Positions 1,195 to 59,131 of a stretch of DNA of 64,000 nucleotides are shown here, in pieces; positions within the stretch are counted from its first letter, which is position 1, and each line of letters begins with the position of its first letter. This DNA is from an uncultured Lachnospiraceae bacterium (GTDB lineage Bacteria > Bacillota > Clostridia > Lachnospirales > Lachnospiraceae). The DNA is taken from positions 1 through 64,000 of the forward strand of contig CAMOIJ010000006.1 in assembly GCA_946615865.1 (NCBI GenBank). The letters run 5' to 3'. The position numbers were made by a program, and so were the translations under genes. The notes below the pieces were generated by a model. The model was not told where the DNA came from. It ran no database searches and was given only the letters and a program-made list of their open reading frames with translations.

Positions 1195-1263
1195 TCATTT
1201 TGCATAAAAAAAAGAAAACACGACAATAGTAACAGGATCCCCAATAATCCTCATCACTGCCAT
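1195..1263 (-). CDS. Putative 22-residue hydrophobic leader peptide upstream of glpP
   Basis: A short reading frame beginning ATG GCA GTG ATG, preceded by GAGGAG at ideal spacing, and ending in TGA nine bases before the glpP ATG. The peptide starts MAVMRIIGDPVT and ends FSFFYAK. Near its 3' end the coding strand has eight T in a row. It lies between the predicted promoter (1306-1334) and glpP, with a predicted untranslated leader of about 36 bases. I do not recognise the peptide. It could couple translation to glpP, act as a regulatory leader, or be a chance ORF; the strong ribosome-binding site argues that it is translated. Confidence 0.5.
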   Translation of the reverse strand: MAVMRIIGDPVTIVVFSFFYAK

Positions 1264-1305
1264 ATTCTCTCCTCTCTAGGCAAAACACATATTTAACTTG
1301 CCTAT

Positions 1306-1334
1306 ATAATACCACTATGTTAGTTAATATGCAA
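1306..1334 (-). promoter_or_regulatory. Predicted sigma-70 promoter for glpP-glpK
   Basis: Read on the minus strand: -35 TTGCAT (1329-1334), 17-base spacer, -10 TATTAT (1306-1311). It is about 45 bases upstream of the leader ORF start. The surrounding sequence is AT-rich, unlike the flanking genes. Confidence 0.65.
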
Positions 1335-1470
1335 CATATAACATAAAACAATTTTCTATTTTTGGTTAATTTTACCACACCAAAGTGCTAAACCCCCGGA
1401 GCCTTTTGTAATCGTTTTCAGTCTTTTGAATGTAGTGATTTGATTTTCAGTGCTTCATGATTGAAAGGAA

Positions 1471-1548
1471 GGGAGCACATAGTCCTGATGAAATACTCTG
1501 AAAGAATGTCAAGCTTTCACCGTATTTCAGCAGGATCTATGTGCTCCC
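1471..1548. repeat. 78-base foldback (long imperfect inverted repeat)
   Basis: Arms 1471-1496 and 1522-1548 are complementary except for a one-base bulge and one mismatch; both ends read GGGAGCACATAG/CTATGTGCTCCC. The loop itself contains a GAAAG/CTTTC pair, so almost the whole element can fold. It lies between the end of the ThrH-like gene and the glpP promoter. It could be a terminator for the minus-strand operon, although the downstream T-run is weak, or a small MITE-like element. Confidence 0.7.
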
Positions 1549-1555
1549 GTACTAC

Positions 1556-2167
1556 TCAATCACAGATCCCCATTTCTTTTTTGATCGCCGCCATAAGCTC
1601 ACTGAACTCCTCGAAGGCCGGCAGCTGCGGATAATCCTGCTTGATCTTTTCGGTGGTCCTGAACAGGAAACCTGCCTGGCTGGCCAGGATCATATCGAGA
1701 TCGTTATAGCTGTCTCCGCTGGCAATGGTGTCAAAGCCGATGGACTGCAGTGCCTTTACAGTGCTGAGTTTGGACTGCTGAATGCGCATCTTGTAGCCGG
1801 TGATCTCACCGTAAGGCGCCACTTCCAGAGAATTGCAGAACAGTGTGGGCCAGCCGAGTTTCTCCATAAGAGGCATCGCGAATTCCGTAAAGGTGTCGCT
1901 GATGATGATCACCTGGGTGAAGGATCTGAGTTCATCCAGAAATTCGCGCGCGCCGGGGAGAGGCTCTATTTTGGCAATGACGTCCTGGATCTCTTTGAGG
2001 CCGAGGCCGTGCTCTTTGAGGATGCCGATCCTCCACTTCATGAGTTTGTCGTAATCAGGCTCGTCTCTAGTCGTCCTCCTAAGCTCCGGGATCCCGCTCA
2101 CTTCCGAGAATGCGATCCAGATTTCAGGTACCAGTACTCCTTCCATATCAAGACAGGTAATATACAT
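1556..2167 (-). CDS. thrH: ThrH-type phosphoserine phosphatase / homoserine phosphotransferase
   Basis: A 203-residue HAD-superfamily enzyme. The first HAD motif is CLDMEGVLVPEIW, with the ThrH-specific spelling DxEGVLVPEIW; motif II is IIISDTF, and motif III/IV is GDSYNDLDM. Length and motif spelling match ThrH of Pseudomonas, which dephosphorylates phosphoserine and can pass the phosphate to homoserine. The start has AAGGAAG upstream. It is the last gene of a four-gene run (membrane protein, Hsp70-like, VanY, this gene), 22 bases after vanY. No serine or threonine pathway gene is nearby, so the physiological substrate is open. Confidence 0.85.
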   Translation of the reverse strand: MYITCLDMEGVLVPEIWIAFSEVSGIPELRRTTRDEPDYDKLMKWRIGILKEHGLGLKEIQDVIAKIEPLPGAREFLDELRSFTQVIIISDTFTEFAMPLMEKLGWPTLFCNSLEVAPYGEITGYKMRIQQSKLSTVKALQSIGFDTIASGDSYNDLDMILASQAGFLFRTTEKIKQDYPQLPAFEEFSELMAAIKKEMGICD

Positions 2168-2189
2168 CGGGTTCTTCCTTTCTTATTTA

Positions 2190-2948
2190 TTATTGATAGA
2201 GCTCCAGAAATTCTTCCAGAGTCAGATCATGCTCCATGATATAGGCCGCAGCTTCCTTTCCCACGTACCGAAAATGCCACGGCTCGTAGATGATTCCGGT
2301 GATGTCTTCTCTTCCCTTTGGAAAGCGCACGATGAAACCGTATTCATCGCAGTGCTGACTCATCCACTGATACATTTCTGTATTCTCGAGGCTTGCATCC
2401 TTCATCTCGTAATAGTGATCCGTGATGTCGCAGCACAGTCCGGTCTGGTGCTCGCTGGTCCCGGGCTTTGCGACGATCGTCGCCGCTACAGTCTCTCCGT
2501 ATTCCGCGGCTTTCCTGTTAAAGAGCCAGGTCTGCGTCGCGTAGCTGCGGTAGCCCGAGGAAAGCAGGACGCTGAGTCCCTCGGCTCTCGCCGCTTCCAC
2601 CATCTCTTCCATGGGCTCTATAATGCGGACGTCGAACTGCTGCCCCTCCAGGTACTCCAGTTCCGGAGTATAGTCTCCGATGTCATTCCAGGGGTTTGCA
2701 AGAATGAACATCCAGTCGCCGGTGTCGATGTCCGGTCTGTCCCTGTAGGGATCCGAGGCATCCTCTGCTATTTCGGTTTCCATCTCAGAGACCTCAAGCG
2801 CCAGCTGCTCGCCGACAGAGATCAGTACCTCGCGAGAAGAGCATTCAGCGTTTCCTCCCGCAGAGGCGATCCCGCTGATCCCCATGAGGATCCAGACTGC
2901 TGCGGTGATCCCTGCGGCAGACGCCGCTCTTTTGTCAAATAGTTTCAT
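2190..2948 (-). CDS. VanY-family D-alanyl-D-alanine carboxypeptidase
   Basis: A 252-residue metallopeptidase of the VanY/M15B family, expected to trim the terminal D-Ala from peptidoglycan stem peptides outside the membrane. An N-terminal hydrophobic stretch (about residues 12-30) is a signal peptide or anchor. Zinc-site motifs are SSGYRSYATQ (about 132), GTSEHQTGLCCDI (His and Asp ligands, about 165) and EPWHFRYVG (His ligand, about 226). It starts 13 bases after the Hsp70-like gene and 22 bases before thrH, so it is operonic. No vanRS or vanHAX genes are near, so this is a housekeeping-type carboxypeptidase and gives no evidence of glycopeptide resistance. Confidence 0.9.
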   Translation of the reverse strand: MKLFDKRAASAAGITAAVWILMGISGIASAGGNAECSSREVLISVGEQLALEVSEMETEIAEDASDPYRDRPDIDTGDWMFILANPWNDIGDYTPELEYLEGQQFDVRIIEPMEEMVEAARAEGLSVLLSSGYRSYATQTWLFNRKAAEYGETVAATIVAKPGTSEHQTGLCCDITDHYYEMKDASLENTEMYQWMSQHCDEYGFIVRFPKGREDITGIIYEPWHFRYVGKEAAAYIMEHDLTLEEFLELYQ

Positions 2949-2961
2949 TTATCATTTCCTT

Positions 2962-4872
2962 TTAGCCGAGGGGAATCTCCACGACTTCGGCCATCTTTGT
3001 GAGGCACTGCTCGATCTGCTCGGAGATCTCGCCCACGAGACGCTCGGTGATCTCGAGATTCTTTTCCTTTTCCAGCGTCTGGTAGAATGAGTTCTTTACC
3101 TCATCGCTGATCTTCTCGATCCGGGACATAAAGTAGCCCCTGGGCACGAGCTTTCTGATAGGACGGGGGATCACCATGTTCATCACGACCTCCTCCATCT
3201 TGTCCTTGCCGAGAGCGAGGACCATAAGCGAGATCATGGCTCCTGCTATTACGCCGGATATTCCTCCCGAGATCAGCGCGACGCCGCTTCCGCCGCATAG
3301 AAGGCCGATCAGAATGGAAATAATGGTGTCGATCATCCAGGTGAGTTCTTCCACCGCGAAAACATCCTTGGCGTCCACCTTGATCTCAAGGTCTGAAATG
3401 GAGAGGAAAGAGCTCAGGCTCAGCGCTCTGTATGGCACGCCGTGTCTGATACAGATCGGCATCGTCATCTCCTCCAGTTCGTAGGAAACGGGCTTGAGCC
3501 ACTGTGTGATGGGCTTTATCAGCATCTCCTGCACTTCTTCCGTGTGCAGGTATTTCTCGATCTCCTTCTCCATCTCCGCGTTGATGTCCGAGAGGCGCTC
3601 GATCTCGCCGTCTCTCCATCTGTCGAACACAGGCATGGCCGCGTTTTCCAGGATCGGTTTCACGAGCATGTCCACAGTGCTGTGATACAGTTCGTCAATA
3701 TGGTTCGCGACGATACGCTCCACAGTGCTCGAACCCACCAGATCCTGGATCTCCGCCCGGAATTGCCGCAATTCTTCGTCGATCCTGCCGCTCCAGGCAA
3801 GGCCGCGGCTGACCGAGAATTCCGGTTCCGTTCCGGTGATCACCACAGCTTCAGGGAAGGCCTCCCTGCACCACTCCCTGATCGCGGGAAGCTTTGAGAC
3901 ACCGCCCGTAAGGAATAGGAGTTCCGGGAGGTCTCCCTGGATCCTCTCCCGCACCTGTTTGAGGCTGTGCATGAACACATCCTTGAAGCTTCGTCCCTCC
4001 AGCTGGGGGATCCCGTCGTACAGGATGTGATCCGCTGTTTTGGCATCCATCACAAGCTGGAGCCGGATCGGCTTTTCGTAGCTGATGATGACCGACTGCA
4101 TGCACTTGTTCTCTTTCCAGTATTCCTCGTCGGCAAAGTATTTCTCCTTGAGCTTTCTTGCCGCGAATTCGCAGTAGCTCTTCCATGGCGGGCTCTGCTC
4201 GAAGATCTCCCGGATCCTCTCGCCTCTGACGGAAGCGTTCAGCGCGCAGCTCAGCAGCACCTCGTCCATAATGCCGCCTCCCAACGCCACCTCGCCGGCG
4301 GTCTGCATGTCCACTTCCTTGCCTCCCATGATGTAGGCGAAATCCGTTGTCGATGATCCCACATCAACTACCAGCACCGGTTTGGACAAAATATCGTACC
4401 CCACCTGGAAGTGCTTGGACTGGCAGGCGCTCACCAGAGCGGCTCTCGACTCGGAGATGATGCGCACGGGCGGATATCCCGCCTCCTCAAACAGTCCTCT
4501 GTAGCGCTCTCTCGCTGTTTTGTCCCAGCCCGCCGGGCAGCCCACATAGAAGCAGCAGTCCTCTCCCTTTACGAGGTCTCCGCTCATGTACAGTTCCCCA
4601 AGGACTCCTGCCGCGAAGGACTTTACATCCCTGCGGCTGTCCGGATCCCGCAGGAACCTGCTCTTAAACCTGATCTTGCGCTCGACTGCCTCCGGATTAT
4701 AGCAGGCGGCCTCGCCGATCACCAGCGCTCCGTTGCGAAGTCTGGCATAGGCTGTCACAAAACTCCCGGCTTCTCCCACAGTGATGATCCGCGGAACTCC
4801 CGCGTCATTTTTATTAAGACAGGAGACGGCGCTCTCGGCGTCTCCAAGGTCAAATCCATAATAGCGGTCCAT
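2962..4872 (-). CDS. Membrane-associated Hsp70-like ATPase
   Basis: A 636-residue protein with an actin/Hsp70-fold nucleotide-binding domain in about residues 1-370: phosphate-1-like FDLGDAESAVS at the N-terminus, phosphate-2 VVDVGSSTTDF (about 167) and adenosine motif LFLTGGVSKLPAIR (about 318). The usual beta-sandwich substrate-binding domain of DnaK is not evident. Instead the C-terminal half is helical with a glycine-rich hydrophobic segment at about 510-556 that looks like a membrane hairpin, then a charged helical tail. Phosphate-1 is atypical because the usual GTTN is replaced. The preceding gene also encodes a membrane protein. Role unknown; membrane remodelling or envelope quality control is a guess. 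Confidence 0.8.
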   Translation of the reverse strand: MDRYYGFDLGDAESAVSCLNKNDAGVPRIITVGEAGSFVTAYARLRNGALVIGEAACYNPEAVERKIRFKSRFLRDPDSRRDVKSFAAGVLGELYMSGDLVKGEDCCFYVGCPAGWDKTARERYRGLFEEAGYPPVRIISESRAALVSACQSKHFQVGYDILSKPVLVVDVGSSTTDFAYIMGGKEVDMQTAGEVALGGGIMDEVLLSCALNASVRGERIREIFEQSPPWKSYCEFAARKLKEKYFADEEYWKENKCMQSVIISYEKPIRLQLVMDAKTADHILYDGIPQLEGRSFKDVFMHSLKQVRERIQGDLPELLFLTGGVSKLPAIREWCREAFPEAVVITGTEPEFSVSRGLAWSGRIDEELRQFRAEIQDLVGSSTVERIVANHIDELYHSTVDMLVKPILENAAMPVFDRWRDGEIERLSDINAEMEKEIEKYLHTEEVQEMLIKPITQWLKPVSYELEEMTMPICIRHGVPYRALSLSSFLSISDLEIKVDAKDVFAVEELTWMIDTIISILIGLLCGGSGVALISGGISGVIAGAMISLMVLALGKDKMEEVVMNMVIPRPIRKLVPRGYFMSRIEKISDEVKNSFYQTLEKEKNLEITERLVGEISEQIEQCLTKMAEVVEIPLG

Positions 4873-9454: not shown

Positions 9455-10099
9455 TCAGGCGCTCTGCTTCATCCTCCTGCCGGATGCGTTTGCATCGGCC
9501 ACATTGGCGGAGGCCTTCTTCATTTCCTTCTCTGCCTTATCATACGCCATTTCCAGAGCAGCCATATTTCCCTTTATCACTTCGGGCTTCTTCGCGAACT
9601 TGTGGGCAAAGGAAGCCTGCATCTCGGTGAGGAAATCTTCTCTCGACATGATACCTGTCACTGCTGCAGTTGCTGCCAGCATAGGAGTGTTGGGGAAATT
9701 CCTGCCAAGTGTCGTCTCGGAAATGTGTCTTGCATCCACCGTAAGGACTCTTCCCTTGTAACCGCGCAGAAGACTCCTGATTTCCCTGGCAGACTTGGGT
9801 GTATTGACGATGATCGCGCCTTCCCTCTTAAGCCCGTTCGTAACGTCTACTGAATGAAGGAGTGTCTCATCTACAACAACTACATAGTCGGGATCGTAAA
9901 TGTTGGAGTGGACGCGGATCTTATCCTCACTGATCCTGTTGAACGCCGTAATGGGAGCACCCATGCGCTCCGGACCGTATTCCGGAAATCCCTGCACGCA
10001 GCATCCTGTCTTGAACGCCACATCTGCCAGAAGCAGTGCCGCTGTCTTGGCGCCCTGGCCGCCTCTTCCATGCCATCTGATCTCTACTGTGTTTTTCAT
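9455..10099 (-). CDS. porG: 2-oxoacid:ferredoxin oxidoreductase, gamma subunit
   Basis: A 214-residue gamma subunit. The family signature IRWHGRGGQGAKTAALLLA is at the N-terminus, followed by VQGFPEYGPERMGAPI and the later VDETLL and NTPMLAA segments; this subunit binds CoA in the complex. The ATG at 10099 is preceded by AGAGGGATA. It is the first gene of porGDAB, 78 bases downstream of a good promoter. The C-terminal 25 residues are Ala/Ser/Lys-rich and unconserved. Many Clostridia use single-chain PFOR instead; the four-subunit form here may be additional. Confidence 0.88.
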   Translation of the reverse strand: MKNTVEIRWHGRGGQGAKTAALLLADVAFKTGCCVQGFPEYGPERMGAPITAFNRISEDKIRVHSNIYDPDYVVVVDETLLHSVDVTNGLKREGAIIVNTPKSAREIRSLLRGYKGRVLTVDARHISETTLGRNFPNTPMLAATAAVTGIMSREDFLTEMQASFAHKFAKKPEVIKGNMAALEMAYDKAEKEMKKASANVADANASGRRMKQSA

Positions 10100-10127
10100 C
10101 GAATATCCCTCTGTATAATGAATTATT

Positions 10128-10144
10128 TTCATCTCTTAGATGAA
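10128..10144. promoter_or_regulatory. 7-3-7 inverted repeat in the porGDAB leader
   Basis: TTCATCT and AGATGAA separated by CTT, located 29-45 bases upstream of the porG ATG and downstream of the predicted transcription start. A candidate operator for the LysR regulator encoded at the end of the operon, or an mRNA hairpin. Confidence 0.35.
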
Positions 10145-10176
10145 TTTCTTTGACTATCAAGTCACCGACATTCGTT

Positions 10177-10204
10177 ATTATACGCTCTTTTCGATGAATG
10201 TAAA
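10177..10204 (-). promoter_or_regulatory. Predicted sigma-70 promoter for porGDAB
   Basis: Minus strand: -35 TTTACA (10199-10204), 16-base spacer, perfect -10 TATAAT (10177-10182). It lies directly after the nth stop codon, so the por operon has its own start and is not dependent on nth transcription. Confidence 0.65.
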
Positions 10205-10210
10205 TATCTT

Positions 10211-10861
10211 TTATAATGAATAATTTTCACCATCCTTGCCATATCGGCAAATATCCTTCAGACAACACTCCGCGCATCTGGGCCTCCTCGCCACGCAGAC
10301 CGCCCGTCCATGCAGTACGAAGCGGTGGCACAGGTCATTTCCTTCCTCCGGAGGCACGATCTTCCAGAGCTCCCGCTCTACTTTGGCAGGCTCTTTGATG
10401 CCGTCCACCAGGCCGATCAGGTTGCACAGGCGGATGCAGTGAGTATCTGTAACTATGGCCGGTTTCCCGAAAACATCGCCCATGATCAGGTTCGCGCTCT
10501 TTCTGCCCACGCCGGGAAGAGCCAGCAGTTCCTCGAATGTCTCAGGGACATTATCGTTGTATTTTTCGTGCAGGACCTTCATACAGGCGGAGATGTCCCG
10601 CGCTTTGCTGGGTCCAAGCCCGCAGGGCCGCACGATCTTCTCGATCTCCTTCGTCTCCGCTTCTGCCAGCGCCGCGACAGAAGGAAACTTTTCATATAAG
10701 AGCGGGGTGATCTGGTCCACCCGCGCGTCGGTGCACTGGGCTGCCAGCCTGACGCTCACCAGAAGCTGCCACGCCTTGTCATAGTCCAGCGTGCACTTTG
10801 CCTCCGGGTATTCCTTTTTCAGCCTCTCAATGACCTGCAGGGTCAACTCTTTTTTGTCCAC
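10211..10861 (-). CDS. nth: Endonuclease III
   Basis: A 216-residue bifunctional DNA glycosylase/AP lyase for oxidised pyrimidines. The helix-hairpin-helix LPGVGRKSANLIMG contains the catalytic Lys (about residue 121), and IVTDTH holds the catalytic Asp. The C-terminus has the complete 4Fe-4S ligand pattern C-x6-C-x2-C-x5-C (CVARRPRCAECCLKDIC). The start is GTG with AGAGGTGG upstream. It is transcribed divergently from nhaC, with 184 bases between them. Confidence 0.96.
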   Translation of the reverse strand: MDKKELTLQVIERLKKEYPEAKCTLDYDKAWQLLVSVRLAAQCTDARVDQITPLLYEKFPSVAALAEAETKEIEKIVRPCGLGPSKARDISACMKVLHEKYNDNVPETFEELLALPGVGRKSANLIMGDVFGKPAIVTDTHCIRLCNLIGLVDGIKEPAKVERELWKIVPPEEGNDLCHRFVLHGRAVCVARRPRCAECCLKDICRYGKDGENYSL

Positions 10862-10977
10862 TTAATCCACCTCTTTGCTGCTTTTCAATGTACATGCAGT
10901 ATTCTTGCACGGGTACAGGCTGTTTGTCAAAATATCCCCTGCGCTTATTTTTTTGATCGCAAATCCGTTTCTACTAT

Positions 10978-11006
10978 TTGACTGTAATCCGACACTGTAT
11001 TACTAT
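10978..11006 (+). promoter_or_regulatory. Predicted sigma-70 promoter for nhaC
   Basis: -35 TTGACT (10978-10983), 17-base spacer, -10 TACTAT (11001-11006), with the nhaC start 40 bases further on. Confidence 0.65.
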
Positions 11007-11045
11007 GTTAAAGTATACTTTTTCATATTTTGAGAGGGGAAAAAA

Positions 11046-12653
11046 ATGCAAAAGAAAGAATCGAAAATCTCAGTCTCACTGATCGCCATGTTTGTGGTTG
11101 TCGCTCTCATCATTGCGATGGCGTTTCTGACAAACGCGGAATCCGTTCAGCAGACAGCCTGGTCACTGGTACCTCCGATCATCGCCATCGCGCTGGCACT
11201 GATCACCAAGGAAGTTTACAGTTCCCTGTTCATCGGTATCATTTCCGGCGCTCTCCTGTATTCGGGTTATAACTTCGAGGGGACCCTGAACCATATTTTC
11301 ACAGATGGTGTCATTGCGGTTCTCTCCGACTCCTACAACATGGGCATCCTGGTGTTCCTGGTGATCCTGGGCATCATGGTACAGCTGATGAACCGCACCG
11401 GCGGAAGCGCCGCATTCGGAAACTGGGCTTCTGAGAAGATCACAAGCAGAGAAGGCGCGCAGCTCGCCACCATCGGCCTCGGTTGCCTGATCTTCATCGA
11501 CGACTATTTTAACTGTCTGACAGTCGGCAGCGTAATGCGCCCCGTCACGGACAAGCACAAGATCTCCCGCGCCAAGCTCGCTTACCTGATCGACGCGACC
11601 GCAGCTCCCGTCTGCATCATCGCTCCGATCTCCTCCTGGGCTGCGGCCGTCTCCGGTTTCGTAGAGGGCGAGAACGGCATCGCGCTGTTCATCAAGTCCA
11701 TTCCTTATAACTATTACGCTCTGTTCACGATCGCCATGATGATCCTCATGGTCATAATGAAGATAGAGTACGGCCCCATGTATAAGCACGAGTACAACGC
11801 CCTTCAGAACGGCGACCTGTACACAACAGAAGATCGTCCTTATGCAAACGTAGACAGCTCCAAGGACAAGACTGACGGCAAAGTTGTCGATATGCTCTTT
11901 CCTATCATCTCTCTGGTCATCGGCTGCGTCATCGGCATGATCTACACCGGCGGTTTCTTCGAAGGCACAAGCTTCATCGAGTCCTTCGCGAACTCCGATG
12001 CTTCCGTAGGTCTCGTGCTCGGCTCCTTCTGCGCGCTGATCCTCACAATGGCCTTCTACATGGTTCGCAAATCTCTTGATTTTAGTTCCATCATGGAGTG
12101 CATCCCTGAGGGCTTCAAGCAGATGGTTCCCGCTATCCTGATCCTGACTTTCGCATGGTCCCTCAAGGCTATGACAGACAGCCTCGGCGCCAAGGAATTC
12201 GTCGCTTACGTCATCCAGAACAAGGCTGCAGGCTTTGCAGGACTTCTGCCCTTCATCATCTTCCTGATCGCCGTAGGTCTCTCTTTCGCGACCGGAACAA
12301 GCTGGGGAACCTTCGGTATCCTGATCCCGATCGTCGTCGCCTGCTTCCAGGCCACTGACTATCAGCTGATGATCATCTCCATGTCCGCATGTATGGCAGG
12401 CGCTGTCTGCGGCGACCACTGCTCCCCTATCTCCGATACGACCATCATGTCGTCAGCCGGTGCGCAGTGCAACCACCTCAACCACGTCTCCACGCAGCTC
12501 CCTTACGCGATGACCTGCGCCGCTATCTCAGCGCTGACCTACATCGTTGCAGGACTGACCAAGAACGTCTTCCTGCCTCTGCTGATCGGTCTCGTGATCC
12601 TGATCGCCGTCATGTATATTCTGTCCAGAAGAGCGGCGAAAGAGAACGCCTGA
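11046..12653 (+). CDS. NhaC-family Na+/H+ antiporter
   Basis: A 535-residue integral membrane protein with roughly 11-12 hydrophobic segments. Family landmarks include the early PPIIAIALALITKEVY, FIGIISGALLY, and the C-terminal TGTSWGTFGILIPI and DHCSPISDTTIMSSAG, a signature shared by NhaC-type antiporters. It exchanges sodium, or another cation or amino-acid couple, for protons at the cytoplasmic membrane. A GAGAGGGG ribosome-binding site precedes the ATG. It is monocistronic, with a strong promoter upstream and a strong terminator 18 bases downstream. Related transporters swap malate/lactate or lysine/arginine-type substrates, so ion specificity is by family only. Confidence 0.88.
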   Translation: MQKKESKISVSLIAMFVVVALIIAMAFLTNAESVQQTAWSLVPPIIAIALALITKEVYSSLFIGIISGALLYSGYNFEGTLNHIFTDGVIAVLSDSYNMGILVFLVILGIMVQLMNRTGGSAAFGNWASEKITSREGAQLATIGLGCLIFIDDYFNCLTVGSVMRPVTDKHKISRAKLAYLIDATAAPVCIIAPISSWAAAVSGFVEGENGIALFIKSIPYNYYALFTIAMMILMVIMKIEYGPMYKHEYNALQNGDLYTTEDRPYANVDSSKDKTDGKVVDMLFPIISLVIGCVIGMIYTGGFFEGTSFIESFANSDASVGLVLGSFCALILTMAFYMVRKSLDFSSIMECIPEGFKQMVPAILILTFAWSLKAMTDSLGAKEFVAYVIQNKAAGFAGLLPFIIFLIAVGLSFATGTSWGTFGILIPIVVACFQATDYQLMIISMSACMAGAVCGDHCSPISDTTIMSSAGAQCNHLNHVSTQLPYAMTCAAISALTYIVAGLTKNVFLPLLIGLVILIAVMYILSRRAAKENA

Positions 12654-51790: not shown

Positions 51791-52729
51791 TCATGGGAGG
51801 ATCTTTTTGATCTTCCTCTCGATCCTGCTCATAAGGGTGACCGATCCGTAGTGCTCCATCACAAAGTCGATCCCGTGTTTATGATAGTCTCTCCAGAACT
51901 TGTGCCTGATCTCAGAGGGCTTTGTGGGCTCCTGCAGGTTCAGCTGCCAGCAGTCCGTCGTATTGCTCTCCCGCAGTTCCAGGTTCTCTTTGATCTCATC
52001 AAAGAGCTCTTTCCCGCGCTCTGTGTGGATCAGGACAAGGCTCGTCCCTATCTCGTCCGCGAAGTCCGGCATGCTCTTCTCTATATGCCAGAAGTCGCCG
52101 ATCGTTATGTCTGTGTCTCTGTCCATCCTGGTGTAAGGGCACAAATGACAGGAAGGGCGGATCGTATAGCGGTCAGTGTAGATCCTTCTGTATTTTGCAA
52201 TAGAGATCTCCTCGCCGTTTCTTTTGACCGTTCCCACAGACTTGCTCCAGCCGGTCTTCTTGTTCCTGAAGTTCAGGTCGCTGAGTTTCCCCTCCTTTTC
52301 CAGGGAGCGGGCATACTCCGCCCAGATCAGGGGACTGGGGGCTCCGTGACAGATGATATCGACAGTAAAGATCCTCCCGCTCATCCCGTTCATCTTCATG
52401 AACTGCATAAAACCCGCGGCCTGACATCCCAGTCCTGCAAACATAAGCTTGCGTTCAGGGTTTTCCTTCAGCCAGTAAAGCGCCTCTTTCCACGAATCAA
52501 GCGCATAGCTCTGCATATACATGGAGCCCGATGACGCGTCCCTCTCTTCCTTTGTCAGGGCGAGCTTAAACTCCGTCCGGTGCTCTTCGTAATTATAGCG
52601 GGCGCACAGGACTGCATCGCCTCTCTCTAAAAAGGCGTCTGAGATCGCGGTAAAAGCGCCGCCGGAAGAGCTTCTCTGCAGTATTTCCCTGTCTTTGACC
52701 CTGCAGGCATAGACCAGTGTGTTCTCCAT
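51791..52729 (-). CDS. FrhB-like (F420 hydrogenase beta-type) protein lacking its own ferredoxin domain
   Basis: A 312-residue protein of the FrhB family found in surface polysaccharide loci. RSSSGGAFTAISDAFL (about 20), FAGLGCQAAGF, VDIICHGAPSPLIW and CHLCPYTRMDRDTDITIGDFW (landmark CHLCPYTRM) are family hallmarks. Relatives usually begin with a two-cluster ferredoxin; here that part is absent and is found as the tail of the upstream flippase. The ATG is in the same frame, separated by TGA and three codons, with TGAGGA serving as ribosome-binding site. Redox role in glycan modification is inferred from context. Confidence 0.85.
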   Translation of the reverse strand: MENTLVYACRVKDREILQRSSSGGAFTAISDAFLERGDAVLCARYNYEEHRTEFKLALTKEERDASSGSMYMQSYALDSWKEALYWLKENPERKLMFAGLGCQAAGFMQFMKMNGMSGRIFTVDIICHGAPSPLIWAEYARSLEKEGKLSDLNFRNKKTGWSKSVGTVKRNGEEISIAKYRRIYTDRYTIRPSCHLCPYTRMDRDTDITIGDFWHIEKSMPDFADEIGTSLVLIHTERGKELFDEIKENLELRESNTTDCWQLNLQEPTKPSEIRHKFWRDYHKHGIDFVMEHYGSVTLMSRIERKIKKILP

Positions 52730-52738
52730 ATTACGTCC

Positions 52739-54391
52739 TCATTTTCCCTGATCCCGCTTGAAGGCGCAAGCCTGCAGACATTTATGGCAGCGCACACACT
52801 TATCGGCGTCGATCACAGGATACAAAAAGCCCTCTTCATCCGCTTTCATTTCGATCGCTCCCACAGGGCAGACCGCATAGCAGGCACTGCATCCGCAGCA
52901 GCTGCTCTTATCATCCGCGAGCGCCGGAAGATCGGAAGCGCCCTTATCCGCCGAAGCGCCCGCTGTCCTTTTGCCGGTCCCTCTCTTTTTATTTAAGTAA
53001 GCCATTCCTTTTTTCATTATGACCCTGACGAAGTCTTTGTTGATCGCCATAAAGACGACGCATCCCACTGCCAGGTTGATAACGTTGAGGATCGGCATCT
53101 GCATAAAGCACATGATACTCTGTGCGGCCATGATCGTGAGAATGACCAGCATATGGGAGACATTGTATCTGACCTTTATGATCCTCTGCACGTCGATACT
53201 CCTGTAGACAAACAGGAAGAGATAGCTGATCAGCGTGGAGCCGGAAGCCGCGTAGAGACCGATCCAGCGGATCGTCGCAACGTCCACGATCAGGTTGATG
53301 GCCGCGGCGGCGGTAGTCGTGATTCCGACGCTCGCCGACTCCTTGTAAGCCACATAGATCCCTCCAAGGAAGGTGGACATACTAAAGAAGAACATGGCCG
53401 CAAAGAGGATGGGGATCTGATTGTAAGCTTCTGAGTAGTCGCCCCGGATCAGGAGCCTGAACAAAATGGGGGTCGCAGCGATCAGAAGGCCGAAAAATCC
53501 GGCCATGAGGTCGAACATGACCCGGAACATGGAGGAATAGTATTCGCCTGCATCCCGGTCTTTGGACACCACCGCTGCATTCTCCTGCCATGCCATGTTA
53601 AATGTGTTCTGAGCGATCGTCAGAAGCCCGGGGATCTTATTGGCGACCGCATAGACCGCGTTGGCCGCTACGCCCATAAAGAAAGTGACTACAAGGCGGT
53701 CCGATACCCTCATGACCCAGGCGGACATACTGTTGGGCACCATTGGCCAGGAATAGCGGAGCATTTCTCTGATCTTGTCCTTGTTATAGTACCGGAAGTC
53801 AAAATAGCGGAAGATCCCCGCTCTGAAGACCAGATAGGCAAAAGAGAATACCGCTGACATCAGAAGTGCCGTCACTGTTCCCTTCAGTCCGGCTCTGAGC
53901 CAGTAGACGCAGATCACGGCAAAGATCATCTTGCCCATAGCTGCCAGGATCGCGCTGATGGAGTACTCCAGGTTCTCATTGAGGCCTCTGCAGATCTGTC
54001 TCGCGACATTGCCCAGCACATCAAACAAAAAGTACAGGCAGATCAGTATCCTGATCGTGCCGCCGGTCCCTCCAAGGCAGAAAAAAAGGATGAGCAAAGA
54101 AAGCAGGGAAGTCGGAATGACGAACACCACAATATTCGTCACGATTTCCTTTACCTTTTCCTCATCGTCTCTTACATCGATCAGAAAGCGGAATGCCGCC
54201 GCCTGGATCTGCAAAGTGACTGTCGGCAGCAGAAGCGATTCCAGGATCGTGATCAGGTCATAGGTTCCCATCTCCTCCTTCGTAAGACATCCGGTGAGAA
54301 TGGGAAGTGTTATAAAAGAGGCCAGCCTGGGCAGAAATGTCCCTATGGACAGTATAAGTGTATTTTTGGCCAGTTTACTCTCTCGACTCAT
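52739..54391 (-). CDS. Wzx-like polysaccharide flippase fused to a two-cluster ferredoxin domain
   Basis: A 550-residue protein. Residues 1-460 are a MATE/MOP-superfamily oligosaccharide flippase with about twelve helices (N-terminus ITLPILTGCLTKEEMGTYDL). After a Lys/Gly/Ala-rich linker, residues about 495-550 hold CCGCSACYAVCPVGAIEM and CVRCHKCLQAC, each a full CxxCxxCxxxC set for 4Fe-4S clusters, the type normally found at the start of FrhB-like proteins. The start has AAGGA upstream and overlaps the preceding gene by 17 bases. The fusion could be real or derived from loss of a stop codon. Confidence 0.85.
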   Translation of the reverse strand: MSRESKLAKNTLILSIGTFLPRLASFITLPILTGCLTKEEMGTYDLITILESLLLPTVTLQIQAAAFRFLIDVRDDEEKVKEIVTNIVVFVIPTSLLSLLILFFCLGGTGGTIRILICLYFLFDVLGNVARQICRGLNENLEYSISAILAAMGKMIFAVICVYWLRAGLKGTVTALLMSAVFSFAYLVFRAGIFRYFDFRYYNKDKIREMLRYSWPMVPNSMSAWVMRVSDRLVVTFFMGVAANAVYAVANKIPGLLTIAQNTFNMAWQENAAVVSKDRDAGEYYSSMFRVMFDLMAGFFGLLIAATPILFRLLIRGDYSEAYNQIPILFAAMFFFSMSTFLGGIYVAYKESASVGITTTAAAAINLIVDVATIRWIGLYAASGSTLISYLFLFVYRSIDVQRIIKVRYNVSHMLVILTIMAAQSIMCFMQMPILNVINLAVGCVVFMAINKDFVRVIMKKGMAYLNKKRGTGKRTAGASADKGASDLPALADDKSSCCGCSACYAVCPVGAIEMKADEEGFLYPVIDADKCVRCHKCLQACAFKRDQGK

Positions 54392-55487
54392 TAAGTACTG
54401 ATTCCTTCTCGATCTGATCCGCCCTTTCGGCGATCAGTTTTATATAGTCCGCAGACCTGCGGCGAAGCAGGCCGAGCCGCCTCTGTGCCTCATTCAGGTC
54501 CGCGCTGAAATTATAATCTTCTTCAGTGTTTTTAAGAACGCAGTCCTGCAGTCCGCAGTTCATTAAAAGGTCCCTGCTCCTTACGTTGAACTTTTTCACG
54601 GTCTCCAGCTCTACTTTGAATTTTTTGCCGAAGATTATGGAAAAAGCGGTCCCGTGGAACGAATTGGTAAGGACATACTCCGCCCCTGCAAACAGCCCCA
54701 CGAATTCCTCCGGTGTGCTGTAGCGGACCCTCGGGATATCCCTGTTTTTCCTGTACTCGTTGTTCAGATACAGTATTTTGACACCGGTCCTTGCCGACAA
54801 CTCTCTCGCTGCGTTCAACAGGTTAATGTCTCCGTCCACTGTGTAGACGAAGATGTAGGGCTCCGGGCGGTTTGCGGACGCCATGAACCGCTCCCACTCC
54901 TCCCTGTCAAGAAGAAGCGTGGGATCGAGATCAGCCCTCGCCTCATAGCCGATCGTCTCCATCAGGTCGACAGATCTGGTCTCGCGCAGAGATATGCACT
55001 GCATTCCTGAGAGCCACTCCCTGTACAGTTCCTTCGTTCCCTCGGGGAACGCGTCAAAACCCAGACTGCAGGCATAGGAGTAGCGCTGCTGCTCTCTCGC
55101 GAACACGAGCATATAGGCTGGATCCATACCGGAGAGCTTATTGTTCCATACCTGGTCAGAGCCCGCGACAAAAAGGGCATAGTCTTCCTGTGCCCCTCTG
55201 AGATCTTCGAACTGCATCGGCTGTGAAAGCTCCAGCTTATCCTTTCTGAAAGCGCCGAAAATGCGGTCCTTCTTCATTGCCACCAGACACCGGAACAGCA
55301 CAATGGGAAATCTGTGCCGCTTGAACAGTCCCCAGGGCCTGTGGCCTTCCTCCACGGTCCGGCAGCGGTAATCCACGATGACCGCCTTTCTCCCAAGGCC
55401 GCTGATGACCTGCTGCAGCGCGTAAGCCTGCAGGACAGCTCCGTAATTAGATGCTCTGTGGAAGGTCAAAATACCGATTGGTTTCAT
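54375..55487 (-). CDS. Polysaccharide pyruvyl transferase family protein
   Basis: A 370-residue WcaK/CsaB-like protein that transfers pyruvyl groups to sugars, or a related reaction, in surface polysaccharides. Landmarks are GILTFHRASNYGAVLQAYAL at the N-terminus (nucleotide-binding start), FVAGSDQVWN and TNSFHGTAFSIIFGK. The start MKPIG at 55487 has GAGAG upstream; an upstream in-frame stretch translates as non-family sequence and was excluded. It overlaps the flippase start. The triad with flippase and FrhB-like genes is common in Firmicutes capsule loci. Confidence 0.9.
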   Translation of the reverse strand: MKPIGILTFHRASNYGAVLQAYALQQVISGLGRKAVIVDYRCRTVEEGHRPWGLFKRHRFPIVLFRCLVAMKKDRIFGAFRKDKLELSQPMQFEDLRGAQEDYALFVAGSDQVWNNKLSGMDPAYMLVFAREQQRYSYACSLGFDAFPEGTKELYREWLSGMQCISLRETRSVDLMETIGYEARADLDPTLLLDREEWERFMASANRPEPYIFVYTVDGDINLLNAARELSARTGVKILYLNNEYRKNRDIPRVRYSTPEEFVGLFAGAEYVLTNSFHGTAFSIIFGKKFKVELETVKKFNVRSRDLLMNCGLQDCVLKNTEEDYNFSADLNEAQRRLGLLRRRSADYIKLIAERADQIEKESVLNESRE

Positions 55488-55536
55488 AAGTCTCTCATCT
55501 GTCTTTTCCGGCTGTATCTGCGCCGGGTCTTTCGGT

Positions 55537-56583
55537 TTATTTCTCGAAAGCGGACTTTTCAGGAAGCAGCCGGTCAAAAGCGTCCAGAAGCCTCTCCTTC
55601 GCCCACTCGAAATCTTCCTCGCTGTCAATTTCATCCGCGTCGTTGAGACACAGCATTGGGTATTTGCCGCCGGTGACATATCCGCACAGTTTTTCCACCA
55701 GTTCCCTGTCGGAACTGATCGTGTAATGCGCGCCCAGATTCTCCGCCTTTTCGGGCACGAAATTGCCGCTGGCCAGCTGCCAGTAGCGGAATACAAACTG
55801 GCTCACGTCCCTGACGTCCCTGAAGCGGTGCCTGCAGGCGGCGTCCAGTCTCTCGCCGTTGAGATTCCAGATCGTATCCATCGTGTTCTTGAGGATCGGA
55901 ACCGGCAGGTGCTCGTTCCTGAAGCCGGGGAACATCACGAACTTGCTGCAGTAGATATTCTCCAGTACAGCGCTCACCCCGTTTTTCCTGACGGAAAACC
56001 ACTTGTCCCGGTCCTTTCTGAGGACCTCGTGCATGTCGAAGTGCTCGTTGATCACTTCCGTGCAGTTCAGGTAAATGTGCGGCATAATGGATCCGATCCT
56101 GCCCGGCCTCACCGCGTGGAGCCTGGCCTGGTGCACGGGCTTGCCGTCCCTGTAAAAGATCTCCTTCGGGATACTCCTGCACAGGAAGGTGTCGTCATTG
56201 AAGTATACGAAATGCTCCGACAGTCCCGGGATCCTGTTGACATTGAGTTCGATGGGATGAGAGCTGAATGTAGGAAGATATTCCTCGGGAATATAATCGG
56301 AGTGCTTAACGTGGACCAGTTTTTCCGCGTCCGTGTTGAGCCAGGAAGGTAAGTGGCCGCAAGTCACAAAATAGATCCTGTTGACCCAGGGCGCGAATTT
56401 CTCCACTCCCCGAAACCAGTAGCGGAGAGTCTCCCAGTCCCGGTATCTCGCTTCCCGGTCGTCTACAAGAAAGTGATCCTTCGGCGCGTAACTGTTCCTC
56501 AGCGCTCTCCACTCCGGGTCGCTGTCATCCACCCACAGTATTACGAAGTCAATGGGGTAATCAGATTGATATGTTTTCGCCAT
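55537..56583 (-). CDS. Stealth-family sugar-phosphate transferase
   Basis: A 348-residue Stealth protein, a family of hexose-1-phosphoryl transferases that build phosphodiester-linked capsules. Conserved region 1 PIDFVILWVDDSDPEW is at the N-terminus, region 2 contains FVYFNDDTFLCR, region 3 NCTEVINEHF, and region 4 the C-terminal KYPMLCLND. No signal peptide. GGGAGA precedes the ATG, 28 bases after the epimerase gene. Confidence 0.9.
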   Translation of the reverse strand: MAKTYQSDYPIDFVILWVDDSDPEWRALRNSYAPKDHFLVDDREARYRDWETLRYWFRGVEKFAPWVNRIYFVTCGHLPSWLNTDAEKLVHVKHSDYIPEEYLPTFSSHPIELNVNRIPGLSEHFVYFNDDTFLCRSIPKEIFYRDGKPVHQARLHAVRPGRIGSIMPHIYLNCTEVINEHFDMHEVLRKDRDKWFSVRKNGVSAVLENIYCSKFVMFPGFRNEHLPVPILKNTMDTIWNLNGERLDAACRHRFRDVRDVSQFVFRYWQLASGNFVPEKAENLGAHYTISSDRELVEKLCGYVTGGKYPMLCLNDADEIDSEEDFEWAKERLLDAFDRLLPEKSAFEK

Positions 56584-56611
56584 GTCTGTCTATTCTCCCG
56601 CAGCGGGGCCT

Positions 56612-57670
56612 TCAGATCTGTCCAAGGATCTGCATCGTTCTGCTGATACCGTCTTTGATATCATAAAAAGGTTTCCATCCCAGTTCCCTGAGCTTTGCGC
56701 CGTCGAGCCTTGCCTTGGTCGCCTTGCTGTAGCCCTGTGCTTCTACGGCGTCAGGGATCTCGAAGATCACTTTTCTTCCCGCGTTCTGAGCGATCAGCTC
56801 AGCGAGGTCCCTGAGTCTTATATCAGAGGCCTCATCCGCGATGTTGTAGGCCTCTCCGCTCTCTCCTTTAAGGAGAACAGTGAGCAGACCGCTCACAGCG
56901 TCCGCCACATATGTATAACTGTAATACTGGGTGCCCGCCGATTTGAGGACGATATCCTCACCGGCGATCCCCTTTCTGATAAACTGGCTGATCGCCTTGG
57001 TATCCGACATCAGCATAGTGGGGCCGTAAGAGCGCGTCAGCCTCGGGATACATACGTCGATCCCCTTCTGCTTTCTGTAAGCCTGGCAGAGCGCCTCTCC
57101 GCACCTCTTGCTCTCCGGATATCCTGCCCTCAAGGTATTGCAGTCGATATAGCCGCAGTACTCCTCATCGAAAAGCTCGGCGTCGCCGCGGTTCTCCCCG
57201 TAGATCTCATTGGAGGAGGCAAAGGCAAACCTCTCCGCGTCGTGCGCGCAGGCAAACTCCAGCATATTCTGAAGGCCTATGATATTGGTAGTGATCGTTC
57301 CGATCGGATCCGTAGAATACTGCATAGGGTGCGTGTTGGACGCCAGATGCAGCACAAAATCCACTTTGCCTATATCATTCCGGACGAAAGGAAGATTGAT
57401 GTCATAAGGAATAAAAGAAAACAGCGGATCGCCGCTTCTCGCGCCGAATCTTGCCTTTGCCTTCTCTTCGCTGCGTCCAAGCGCGTAGATCCTGCAGTTC
57501 ATGCTGAACTGCTCATTTCTTTCCATCAGGACGTCGATCAGAAAACTGCCGACCAGTCCCGTCGCGCCCGAGATCAGGACAGCCTTATCCTTTAAGCGGT
57601 CCCACGGAAGGTCCAGCTGCGCGGTCCTTCTGACATCTTCCATATAGTATTCGTTGTTGTATAGATTCAT
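56612..57670 (-). CDS. NAD-dependent epimerase/dehydratase (extended SDR)
   Basis: A 352-residue nucleotide-sugar SDR. Rossmann motif LISGATGLVGSFLIDVL is at about residue 31, HLASNTHP and FASSNEIYG follow, and the catalytic AGYPESKRCGE (YxxxK) is intact. It probably converts a nucleotide sugar (dehydratase, epimerase or decarboxylase) for the locus. I used the ATG with AGAGGAAG upstream; an earlier in-frame ATG overlaps the cytidylyltransferase end. Exact substrate unknown. Confidence 0.86.
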   Translation of the reverse strand: MNLYNNEYYMEDVRRTAQLDLPWDRLKDKAVLISGATGLVGSFLIDVLMERNEQFSMNCRIYALGRSEEKAKARFGARSGDPLFSFIPYDINLPFVRNDIGKVDFVLHLASNTHPMQYSTDPIGTITTNIIGLQNMLEFACAHDAERFAFASSNEIYGENRGDAELFDEEYCGYIDCNTLRAGYPESKRCGEALCQAYRKQKGIDVCIPRLTRSYGPTMLMSDTKAISQFIRKGIAGEDIVLKSAGTQYYSYTYVADAVSGLLTVLLKGESGEAYNIADEASDIRLRDLAELIAQNAGRKVIFEIPDAVEAQGYSKATKARLDGAKLRELGWKPFYDIKDGISRTMQILGQI

Positions 57671-57681
57671 CCGCTCTTCCT

Positions 57682-58398
57682 CTATTTTGCCCAATTGTCC
57701 CTGTCGGCTTTGAGATAAGCCTTGAACATCTCCAGGTCGTCCTTGGTCGTGAGCTTAATATTCTTGTCGGAACCCGCGGCAAAATAGAGCCTCTCGCCGA
57801 GCTCCACCATCATCGTGTTGGTGTAAGAAGAGCCGTAGATCCCGATCTCCTCCTCAAAAGCTTTGTGATAAGCCCAGTCCAGTTTGCCGAAGCGATAAGC
57901 CTGCGGAGTTGAAACTCTCCTGAGCGTCTCGCGCGGAATATATTTGACCGTGCTGATCTCATCGTCGACCACAAAGATCTGCTCATTATAGGGGAGAGAT
58001 GTCACCGCGTTCCCGTATTTCCTGCACTTGATGATGACGTCTGAGAGGACTGTCGCGTCCACCAGAGGCCTGATCCCGTCATGAATGATGACGATATCGT
58101 CGTCGCCGCACTTGCCTTCAAGGTTGTATACGCCGTTGCGGATCGACTCCTGCCCGGTCTCTCCGCCGGACACGATCCACTTGAGCTTGTCGATGCCGAA
58201 CTGTTTGGCGTAAGCCCGAACGATATCGTGCCACCCGTCAATACAGACCACCTCAATGGCGTCGATCTCCGGATGCCTCTGAAAGCCCTCCAGCGTGTAG
58301 ATCAGAATAGGCTTGTCATATACATTTATAAACTGTTTGGGGATATCATAGCCCATTCTGTGGCCCGATCCTCCAGCGATGATGATCGCGACATTCAT
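57682..58398 (-). CDS. IspD/TarI-like CTP-dependent cytidylyltransferase
   Basis: A 238-residue nucleotidyltransferase. The CTP-binding N-terminus AGGSGHRMGYDIPKQF, VIIHDGIRPLV and the later STPQAYRF are the IspD/TarI pattern. Because it sits between a CDP-alcohol phosphatidyltransferase and an SDR inside a glycan locus rather than among isoprenoid genes, a TarI-like role, making CDP-ribitol or another CDP-polyol, is more likely than MEP-pathway IspD. This is inference. AAAGGAGG precedes the ATG, which starts one base after the previous stop. Confidence 0.85.
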   Translation of the reverse strand: MNVAIIIAGGSGHRMGYDIPKQFINVYDKPILIYTLEGFQRHPEIDAIEVVCIDGWHDIVRAYAKQFGIDKLKWIVSGGETGQESIRNGVYNLEGKCGDDDIVIIHDGIRPLVDATVLSDVIIKCRKYGNAVTSLPYNEQIFVVDDEISTVKYIPRETLRRVSTPQAYRFGKLDWAYHKAFEEEIGIYGSSYTNTMMVELGERLYFAAGSDKNIKLTTKDDLEMFKAYLKADRDNWAK

Positions 58399-58399
58399 A

Positions 58400-59131
58400 T
58401 TAGTCCTCCTTTAGTACAGACCGAAGAGACACTATCATTACTGCCGTATTGAACAGCAGATAGCAAACTGTGTAAAGATCCGTGATATTGAAAAGTATCG
58501 CCACGAGCAGCAGGGCTTGGGCGCCTCCCGCGCAGGAGCGCAGGTTAAGCGCGATCGTCTTGACAAGCCCGTAATCCGCTTTATCCATGACATCCTTTAC
58601 GGACTCTTTGTCCATAGTGGTCGTGACCGCCTTGTGCATGACCAGCCTCGGAAGCAGGTCAACGATCGCCGTCAGTCCTCCGCAGATCACAAGCGCCTCC
58701 GCCGTTATAAGTCCTCCCCTTATGAGAGGCCCCGCGCTGTGCGCCGCCATGATCCCGCCGGCGTAGAACATAAGAGCCGACGCGATATATCCGGCCATTG
58801 CGTCGTAGACGCTCCCCATCTTAGAGAACTGCCTCCTGTATCTGGCGACATTTCCGTCCACGCCGTCCAGAAGGTTCCACATAAAAAAGAGGATCCAGCT
58901 TAGGATCATTCCGGCCTTAGAACTTGTAAAGCACGCGGTTATAAATCCGAGCACTGCCGGTATGATCGAGATCATTGAGATCGTGTTCGGCGTGAGGTTT
59001 GTGTACAGAAACGGGATCGTAAGCACATAGGAAAGCGGTCTGCCGATATAAAAGGCAAACATATCGTTTTTGGCCATCGCCTTCTTTTCAGGCGTCATTG
59101 ATTTTTCTTCTATTTCTTTGACAGTTATCAT
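58400..59131 (-). CDS. CDP-alcohol phosphatidyltransferase-like membrane protein
   Basis: A 243-residue membrane protein with about six helices. The family motif reads DGVDGNVAR-x8-GSVYDAMAG. The consensus is DxxDGxxARx8GxxxDxxxD; the last Asp, the proposed catalytic base, is Gly here. The enzyme would attach an alcohol or polyol phosphate from a CDP-linked donor to an acceptor in the membrane, presumably using the product of the cytidylyltransferase encoded next to it. The ribosome-binding site is weak, so the start may be a few codons later. Confidence 0.8.
   Translation of the reverse strand: MITVKEIEEKSMTPEKKAMAKNDMFAFYIGRPLSYVLTIPFLYTNLTPNTISMISIIPAVLGFITACFTSSKAGMILSWILFFMWNLLDGVDGNVARYRRQFSKMGSVYDAMAGYIASALMFYAGGIMAAHSAGPLIRGGLITAEALVICGGLTAIVDLLPRLVMHKAVTTTMDKESVKDVMDKADYGLVKTIALNLRSCAGGAQALLLVAILFNITDLYTVCYLLFNTAVMIVSLRSVLKED

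Follow-up and report, generated by a model that had tools for sequence, protein, structure and literature searches.

A flippase-ferredoxin fusion in a conserved module with an FrhB-like reductase and a PS_pyruv_trans-family transferase

Introduction

Why would a transporter of lipid-linked sugars end in a ferredoxin? The question is raised by a gene in a 64,000-nucleotide stretch of DNA from an uncultured Lachnospiraceae bacterium (assembly GCA_946615865.1, contig CAMOIJ010000006.1, positions 1 to 64,000), the whole of which we call the window. The gene, at 52739-54391 on the reverse strand, encodes a 550-residue protein in which a Wzx-type flippase is followed by a 2[4Fe-4S] ferredoxin (Fd) domain, and it lies between the genes for a transferase of the PS_pyruv_trans family (PT; PF04230) and for an FrhB-like reductase. 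We report here that this is a real and conserved arrangement of domains within known families, for which no description was found in the literature searched, and that the broader PT-Fd-FrhB-flippase module is a more important finding than the flippase fusion. We propose, with a probability of about two in three, a membrane-docked glycan module in which Fd would supply electrons to FrhB for the reduction, at the flippase, of a pyruvyl-type group carried by a lipid-linked glycan.

Results

The flippase-Fd fusion is conserved

The domain make-up of the locus was examined with Pfam. The flippase family PF01943 was matched at residues 7-267 of the fused protein (83.2 bits against a cut-off of 28.2), and the 4Fe-4S dicluster domain Fer4_7 (PF12838) at residues 498-544 of 550 (37.1 bits). 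The cluster motifs of the Fd, CCGCSACYAVCP and CVRCHKCLQAC, conform to two conserved CxxCxxCxxxC patterns and are predicted to bind two [4Fe-4S] clusters. The FrhB-like protein scored above the cut-offs for both PF04422 (41.5 bits) and PF04432 (81.9 bits), and it matched no Fer4 family at 0.001. Reading frames and Pfam thus bear out an earlier note on this DNA, which had described a flippase ending in two complete cysteine clusters followed by an FrhB without Fd.

That note had suggested a search for the fusion in related genomes. A scan of named genome contigs returned 20 loci with relatives, and 146 related genomes were searched, the window's own included. After removal of duplicates there were eight distinct fused loci: the window, L033, L034, L036, L037, L038, L044 (a metagenome-assembled genome (MAG) labelled Oribacterium) and L050. 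The seven others are 62-99% identical to the flippase-Fd protein of the window. FrhB follows directly downstream in all eight, with a gap of 9-25 bp or a 10-bp overlap when counted up to the first possible FrhB start, and in all eight it has no Fd of its own. In a ninth locus, L035, flippase, Fd and FrhB form a single frame of 910 residues, the make-up of which was confirmed by Pfam. Neither a frameshift nor a sense codon at the TGA, by which the earlier note would have given up the fusion, was seen in any of the eight.

None of the eight cluster cysteines varies across the eight rows of alignment A1 (seven fused loci and L035), and L033, which stands outside A1, has them all as well. In L044 all eight align, yet Pfam at 1e-4 gives no Fer4 match. 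Between flippase and Fd, the linker differs from locus to locus in length and sequence (25-52 aligned codons). Ratios of nonsynonymous to synonymous substitution (dN/dS) for seven pairs of loci were 0.15-0.58 in the linker, 0.07-0.17 in the flippase, 0.10-0.25 in FrhB and 0-0.22 in the Fd, where single values are rough since the domain has only 58 codons. In the closest pair, the window and L033, the value for FrhB lies above that for the linker. The Fd is under purifying selection and the linker less so.

PT, Fd, FrhB and flippase recur in different arrangements

Local profile searches covered 40 larger regions picked for holding FrhB, PT or this flippase. PT, Fd and FrhB share one frame in L148, L149, L150, L151, L152, L155, L156 and L159, and L158 has the arrangement Fd-FrhB-PT. 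Elsewhere the order is PT-Fd, FrhB, flippase (L161; G031:C1, 4920-7321), flippase, Fd, FrhB (L160), FrhB-Fd adjoining the flippase (L172), or PT, flippase, Fd-FrhB (for example L177, L178, L180, L183 and L186). Pfam confirmed the make-up of L148, L150, L158 and L161. An N-terminal Fd, which the earlier note took to be normal for FrhB, is therefore common among relatives without being universal, as Fd also occurs as a separate gene or on PT. Since Fd is found on PT, on FrhB, on the flippase or free while FrhB stays close, Fd most likely feeds FrhB.

L161 is a mirror case of the window, with Fd as the tail of PT and FrhB separate. L148 (G007:C158) holds both a PT-Fd-FrhB frame and a flippase-Fd-FrhB frame, at 1200-3638 and 9679-12411, about 6 kb apart. 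A plasmid search with FrhB gave nine records, two of which were examined; in pRUMAL02 of Ruminococcus albus 7 (L189), a PT that the annotation splits in two stands in a row with a polysaccharide biosynthesis protein that we take to be the flippase, FrhB and a 4Fe-4S protein. This plasmid is typed as conjugative, and the module lies near rhamnose genes and integrases. A plasmid of Pseudobutyrivibrio xylanivorans MA3014 likewise has PT, a hypothetical protein and FrhB side by side.

Linkage was counted in the 62 genomes of the genus, 28 of which hold 38 FrhB places and 50 of which hold 73 PT places. A PT lies within 5 kb of 32 of the 38 FrhB places and shares an open frame with 10 of them. In a phylum sample, at least 12 of 16 FrhB places scoring 65-96 bits have a PT within 5 kb, and the true linkage may be higher. 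For the 20 places above 108 bits, no PT within 5 kb was present among the matches listed; the phylum count leaves out 32 weaker FrhB places.

Most FrhB-linked PTs have Ser or Thr at the position of CsaB Arg306

In CsaB, Arg148 and His308 are critical by mutation, and docked phosphoenolpyruvate (PEP) lies also at Arg306 and Lys328 (excerpts of PMC10435577). Equivalent positions were located from the R-x-H motif and five high-scoring PF04230 proteins standing in for CsaB. The PT of the window reads TNSFHG, with Ser where CsaB has Arg306. This position was scored across the genus, at each of its 73 PF04230 places. Among the 39 PTs within 5 kb of an FrhB it is Ser in 35, Thr in one and Arg in two, and the remaining PT is an unscorable fragment; Ser or Thr is thus found in 36 of 38 scorable linked PTs. 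Among the 34 unlinked PTs it is Arg in 31 and Ser in three (Fisher p 1.4e-14, though these are related sequences and not independent trials). In both linked cases with Arg the PT is an additional one, next to a PT of the Ser type (G035, G024), and two of the three unlinked PTs with Ser come from genomes in which an FrhB lies at the end of a contig (G013, G052). WcaK of E. coli, an annotated pyruvyl transferase, has Arg here.

All 31 FrhB-linked PTs that were compared, a set seeded on the PT of the window and so favouring its subfamily, keep the His308 position as well as an invariant Arg that may correspond to Arg148 of CsaB. A loop Arg, maybe Arg207, is missing from 29 of these 31, but it does not separate linked PTs because unlinked ones are also without it (Ser in 17 of 20). 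With the His308 position kept and Ser at the Arg306 position, the PT of the window lacks the full set of CsaB PEP-site residues, and for this reason we do not file it as a ketal pyruvyltransferase.

The fusion is rare

Flippases matching at E 1e-60 or better were found in 20 genomes besides the window's (20 places) in a family sample of 397 genomes, and in 15 genomes besides the window's (16 places) in a class sample of 391. No frame longer than 493 residues was among them, although at most three candidates were scored per genome and fusions may be missed. The flippase-Fd fusion is rare.

All fused loci but L044 fall into one group of seven in the flippase tree (38 rows), starred there (99/97), and L035 joins them in a larger group (100/99), whereas L044 stands apart on weak branches among the unfused relatives. 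The approximately unbiased (AU) test did not reject a single clade of all nine (p 0.21) and rejected a clade of the eight fused loci without L035 (p 0.003). The same seven group with L035 in the FrhB tree (53 rows, a quick method with many long branches), where L044 falls just outside, near L161. A single origin of flippase-Fd is possible, and there may have been two. The one-frame L035 may represent a stage at which Fd and FrhB were joined. The earlier note had the flippase gaining Fd by a shift of the gene boundary; the order PT, flippase, Fd-FrhB in relatives supports this.

A structure model shows a confident Fd between low-confidence stretches

The structure of the one-frame L035 protein, a homologue of the window flippase, was predicted with AlphaFold2 (mean predicted local distance difference test score (pLDDT) 82.5; predicted template modelling score (pTM) 0.51). 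The model has 14 membrane helices by manual count and a confident Fd flanked by low-confidence stretches at 482-496 and 572-595. As 14 is an even number, both ends of the flippase would lie on one side of the membrane, and a Lys/Arg-rich stretch after the last helix suggests that these ends, and with them the Fd tail, are cytoplasmic. Among flippase structures, the best Foldseek match to the flippase part was WzxE 9g9n, with a TM-score of 0.82 by target; MurJ and MATE were matched as well. The FrhB part matched FrhB/FdhB types and 7-hydroxymethyl chlorophyll a reductase (HCAR), a ferredoxin-dependent reductase; by sequence and fold together, the solved relatives of the FrhB-like protein are FrhB/FdhB types. 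FrhB modelled alone gave a pLDDT of 76.5 and a pTM of 0.73.

The coordinates of the locus are collected in Table 1. The PT frame made by the program (54375-55796, reverse strand) begins about 100 codons too early, and the start listed is the likely one. In the same cluster, at 55537-59131 on the reverse strand, are genes for a Stealth-type protein (PF11380), an NAD-dependent epimerase, an IspD-like cytidylyltransferase and a CDP-alcohol phosphotransferase, hinting at a phosphate-linked or CDP-activated glycan component.

Table 1 Positions of the flippase-Fd gene and its partners in the window
Feature	Position	Strand	Basis
Wzx-type (multidrug/oligosaccharidyl-lipid/polysaccharide (MOP) superfamily) flippase part, residues 1-460	53012..54391	-	PF01943, L035 model, Foldseek WzxE
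Variable linker, about residues 461-489, begins Lys/Arg-rich	52925..53011	-	alignment A1, dN/dS
Predicted 2[4Fe-4S] ferredoxin (Fd) domain, about residues 490-547	52751..52924	-	eight cluster Cys; Fer4_7
TGA stop of flippase-Fd gene	52739..52741	-	sequence
GAGGA, likely Shine-Dalgarno of FrhB gene, overlaps TGA	52736..52740	-	consensus match only
FrhB-like reductase, 312 residues, without own N-terminal Fd	51791..52729	-	PF04422 + PF04432
PS_pyruv_trans-family transferase (PT), 370 residues from ATG 55487, overlaps flippase start	54375..55487	-	PF04230

Discussion

Our results suggest that, in a group of rumen bacteria, reduction of a sugar chain takes place at the export gate. In the mechanism that we propose, PT would decorate a sugar residue within the lipid-linked repeat unit at the inner face of the membrane. 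FrhB, as a flavin/iron-sulphur reductase fed with electrons by the 2[4Fe-4S] Fd, would then reduce the group added by PT or a neighbouring one, and the Wzx-type flippase would export the product. The boundary shift would make Fd a cytoplasmic tail of the flippase, by which FrhB would be held beside both gate and substrate. Judging from its family and gene cluster, the flippase probably flips an undecaprenyl-linked oligosaccharide; the FrhB-like protein, as a member of its family, should bind FAD and an iron-sulphur cluster, and its conserved cysteines could hold a cluster of its own. It is the linked PT that suggests a PEP-derived group as the target of FrhB. Electron flow from Fd to FrhB, complex formation, the side on which the tail lies and the reduction itself are all what we infer. 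That the tail and FrhB work together in electron transfer at the membrane had also been raised in the earlier note, and co-conservation and the fusions argue for it.

Coenzyme F420 seems an unlikely electron donor for FrhB, and a ferredoxin-fed route is sensible, because CofH (TIGR03551) was found above cut-off in none of the 62 genomes of the genus; weak matches far below it occur in 42. The common F420-ligase family PF01996 was uninformative in this respect.

As to the product, MurA and MurB offer an analogy, in which enolpyruvyl transfer from PEP is followed by flavin reduction to a lactyl ether. Exopolysaccharides of rumen Butyrivibrio contain 1-carboxyethyl sugars. By the logic of MurA and MurB, our hypothesis is that the product is perhaps a lactyl (1-carboxyethyl) ether. 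In its fullest form, which we offer as a tentative possibility, this would be a route of anaerobes in which the PT subfamily with the Arg-to-Ser change at the PEP site leaves an open enolpyruvyl-type intermediate on the lipid-linked glycan and Fd-driven FrhB reduces it to a lactyl ether; in the lineage of the window the reaction would be docked on the flippase, such that reduction and export would be coupled. The Klebsiella capsule types K8, K22, K37 and K66 have a pyruvyltransferase gene and yet no pyruvylation, and among the genes of 78 annotated Klebsiella clusters are two for nitroreductases and one for a coenzyme F420 hydrogenase, in types not named (excerpts of PMC4616057). Going by a title among the references of PMC3857182, 4-O-[(S)-1-carboxyethyl]-glucuronic acid is a constituent of the K22 capsule, and acetylation is the sole difference between K37 and K22 (excerpts of the same paper). 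For Shigella boydii 17, a 2006 title in the reference list of PMC5643014 speaks of two genes for glucolactilic acid. By analogy, the Klebsiella, Shigella and Butyrivibrio leads make a lactyl ether plausible. In the literature searched, nothing was found on Butyrivibrio exopolysaccharide and carboxyethyl together. The excerpts of PMC6801904, which treats MurA, make no mention of F420, lactyl or Butyrivibrio, and those of PMC11989651 held nothing informative.

Several observations weigh against a docked module of this kind. Single PT-FrhB frames from other families of the phylum (L175, L176) keep Arg at the Arg306 position, and the PT signature may be the plain ancestry of one subfamily. Of the 38 FrhB places of the genus, six lack a PT within 5 kb; for four of these the contig ends less than 1 kb away, for another a PT stands at a distance of 9.4 kb, and the contig of the last carries no PT. 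The F420-ligase family PF01996 is above cut-off in 35 of the 62 genomes (for example G000:C15:9556-10692). Of the loci with Fd on a flippase, eight come from MAGs and the ninth, the window, from a draft genome. The mutual placement of flippase, Fd and FrhB is not confidently predicted (pTM 0.51, disordered linkers). A hydropathy scan of the window protein gave 13 segments, and its loop charges (19 versus 30 Lys/Arg) disfavour a cytoplasmic N-terminus; we do not rely on this charge count because one helix seems to have been missed. Finally, many close flippases are unfused and the tether is thus not essential.

A neutral shift of the gene boundary would account for part of the data. Fd would serve FrhB as it does in relatives, and its place on the flippase would be an accident of stop loss that does neither harm nor good. 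If neighbouring genes readily fuse and split, fusions in many orders are what one would expect; the linker is also under weak constraint, and unfused relatives are common. The fusion has nevertheless been kept in eight loci across 62-99% identity, seven of them in the starred clade with the triple fusion L035 as sister, and the FrhB of every fused locus is without an Fd of its own. On balance we regard a neutral shift as unlikely, while giving it real weight.

The covalent attachment of Fd to a transporter also invites the reading, raised in the earlier note, of a redox-active flippase in which the clusters sense or drive transport and flipping depends on redox state. Here the Fd hangs on a fast-evolving linker that is variable and, in the L035 model, partly disordered; relatives have Fd free or on PT or FrhB, and an FrhB adjoins all eight fused loci. 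Redox gating is hence improbable and this part of the earlier note is not supported.

The junction reads TGA-GGA-CGT-AAT-ATG in frame and with the coordinates exactly as the earlier note described, which had considered TGA readthrough or a selenocysteine role. Either would yield a flippase-Fd-FrhB protein from the genes of the window, of which L035 is a natural one-frame version. Flippase and FrhB share a frame in the window, L033, L037 and L044 but not in L034, L036, L038 and L050, and the stops of the eight loci are seven TGA and one TAA (L038). The window FrhB moreover has its own ATG at 52729, with the likely Shine-Dalgarno GAGGA six bases upstream. The TGA is therefore an ordinary stop, FrhB being out of frame in half of the loci. 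Readthrough and selenocysteine are highly improbable and were ruled out by frames and stop codons, no search for a selenocysteine element having been made. The overlap of the stop with GAGGA fits coupled translation of FrhB. An assembly or sequencing error that joined two genes in the window, a draft of 106 contigs, has next to no probability and was ruled out by independent homologues, as seven other assemblies at 62-99% identity have the same join under codon-level purifying selection.

Fd on a flippase for lipid-linked sugars would physically couple redox chemistry to the export of polysaccharides. A handle is also gained on the FrhB-like genes that occur in polysaccharide clusters of bacteria, since in this genus they co-occur with Fd and a recognisable PT subfamily, and reduction of a PEP-derived group becomes a concrete reaction worth testing.

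Comparison with known systems

In the literature searched, judged by titles or abstract openings, no flippase with a ferredoxin was named, and nothing joined flippase, Fd, FrhB and PT. The parts themselves resemble known families. The flippase is like Wzx and WzxE of the MOP superfamily in its PF01943 match above cut-off, its 14 helices by count in the L035 model and its match to the WzxE fold, and unlike them in its C-terminal 2[4Fe-4S] ferredoxin. The reductase is like the FrhB/FdhB family, which includes beta subunits of F420-reducing hydrogenases and HCAR (5DQR), in PF04422, PF04432 and fold; in contrast to that family, it is encoded within a polysaccharide cluster, next to PT and flippase, and has no Fd of its own. 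PTs of the window type keep the His308 position as do the ketal pyruvyltransferases CsaB, Pvg1p and WcaK (PF04230), whereas those linked to FrhB mostly have Ser or Thr at the Arg306 position. With MurA and MurB the families differ, and the suggested likeness lies in the sequence of steps, in which a PEP-type transferase would be followed by a flavin reductase.

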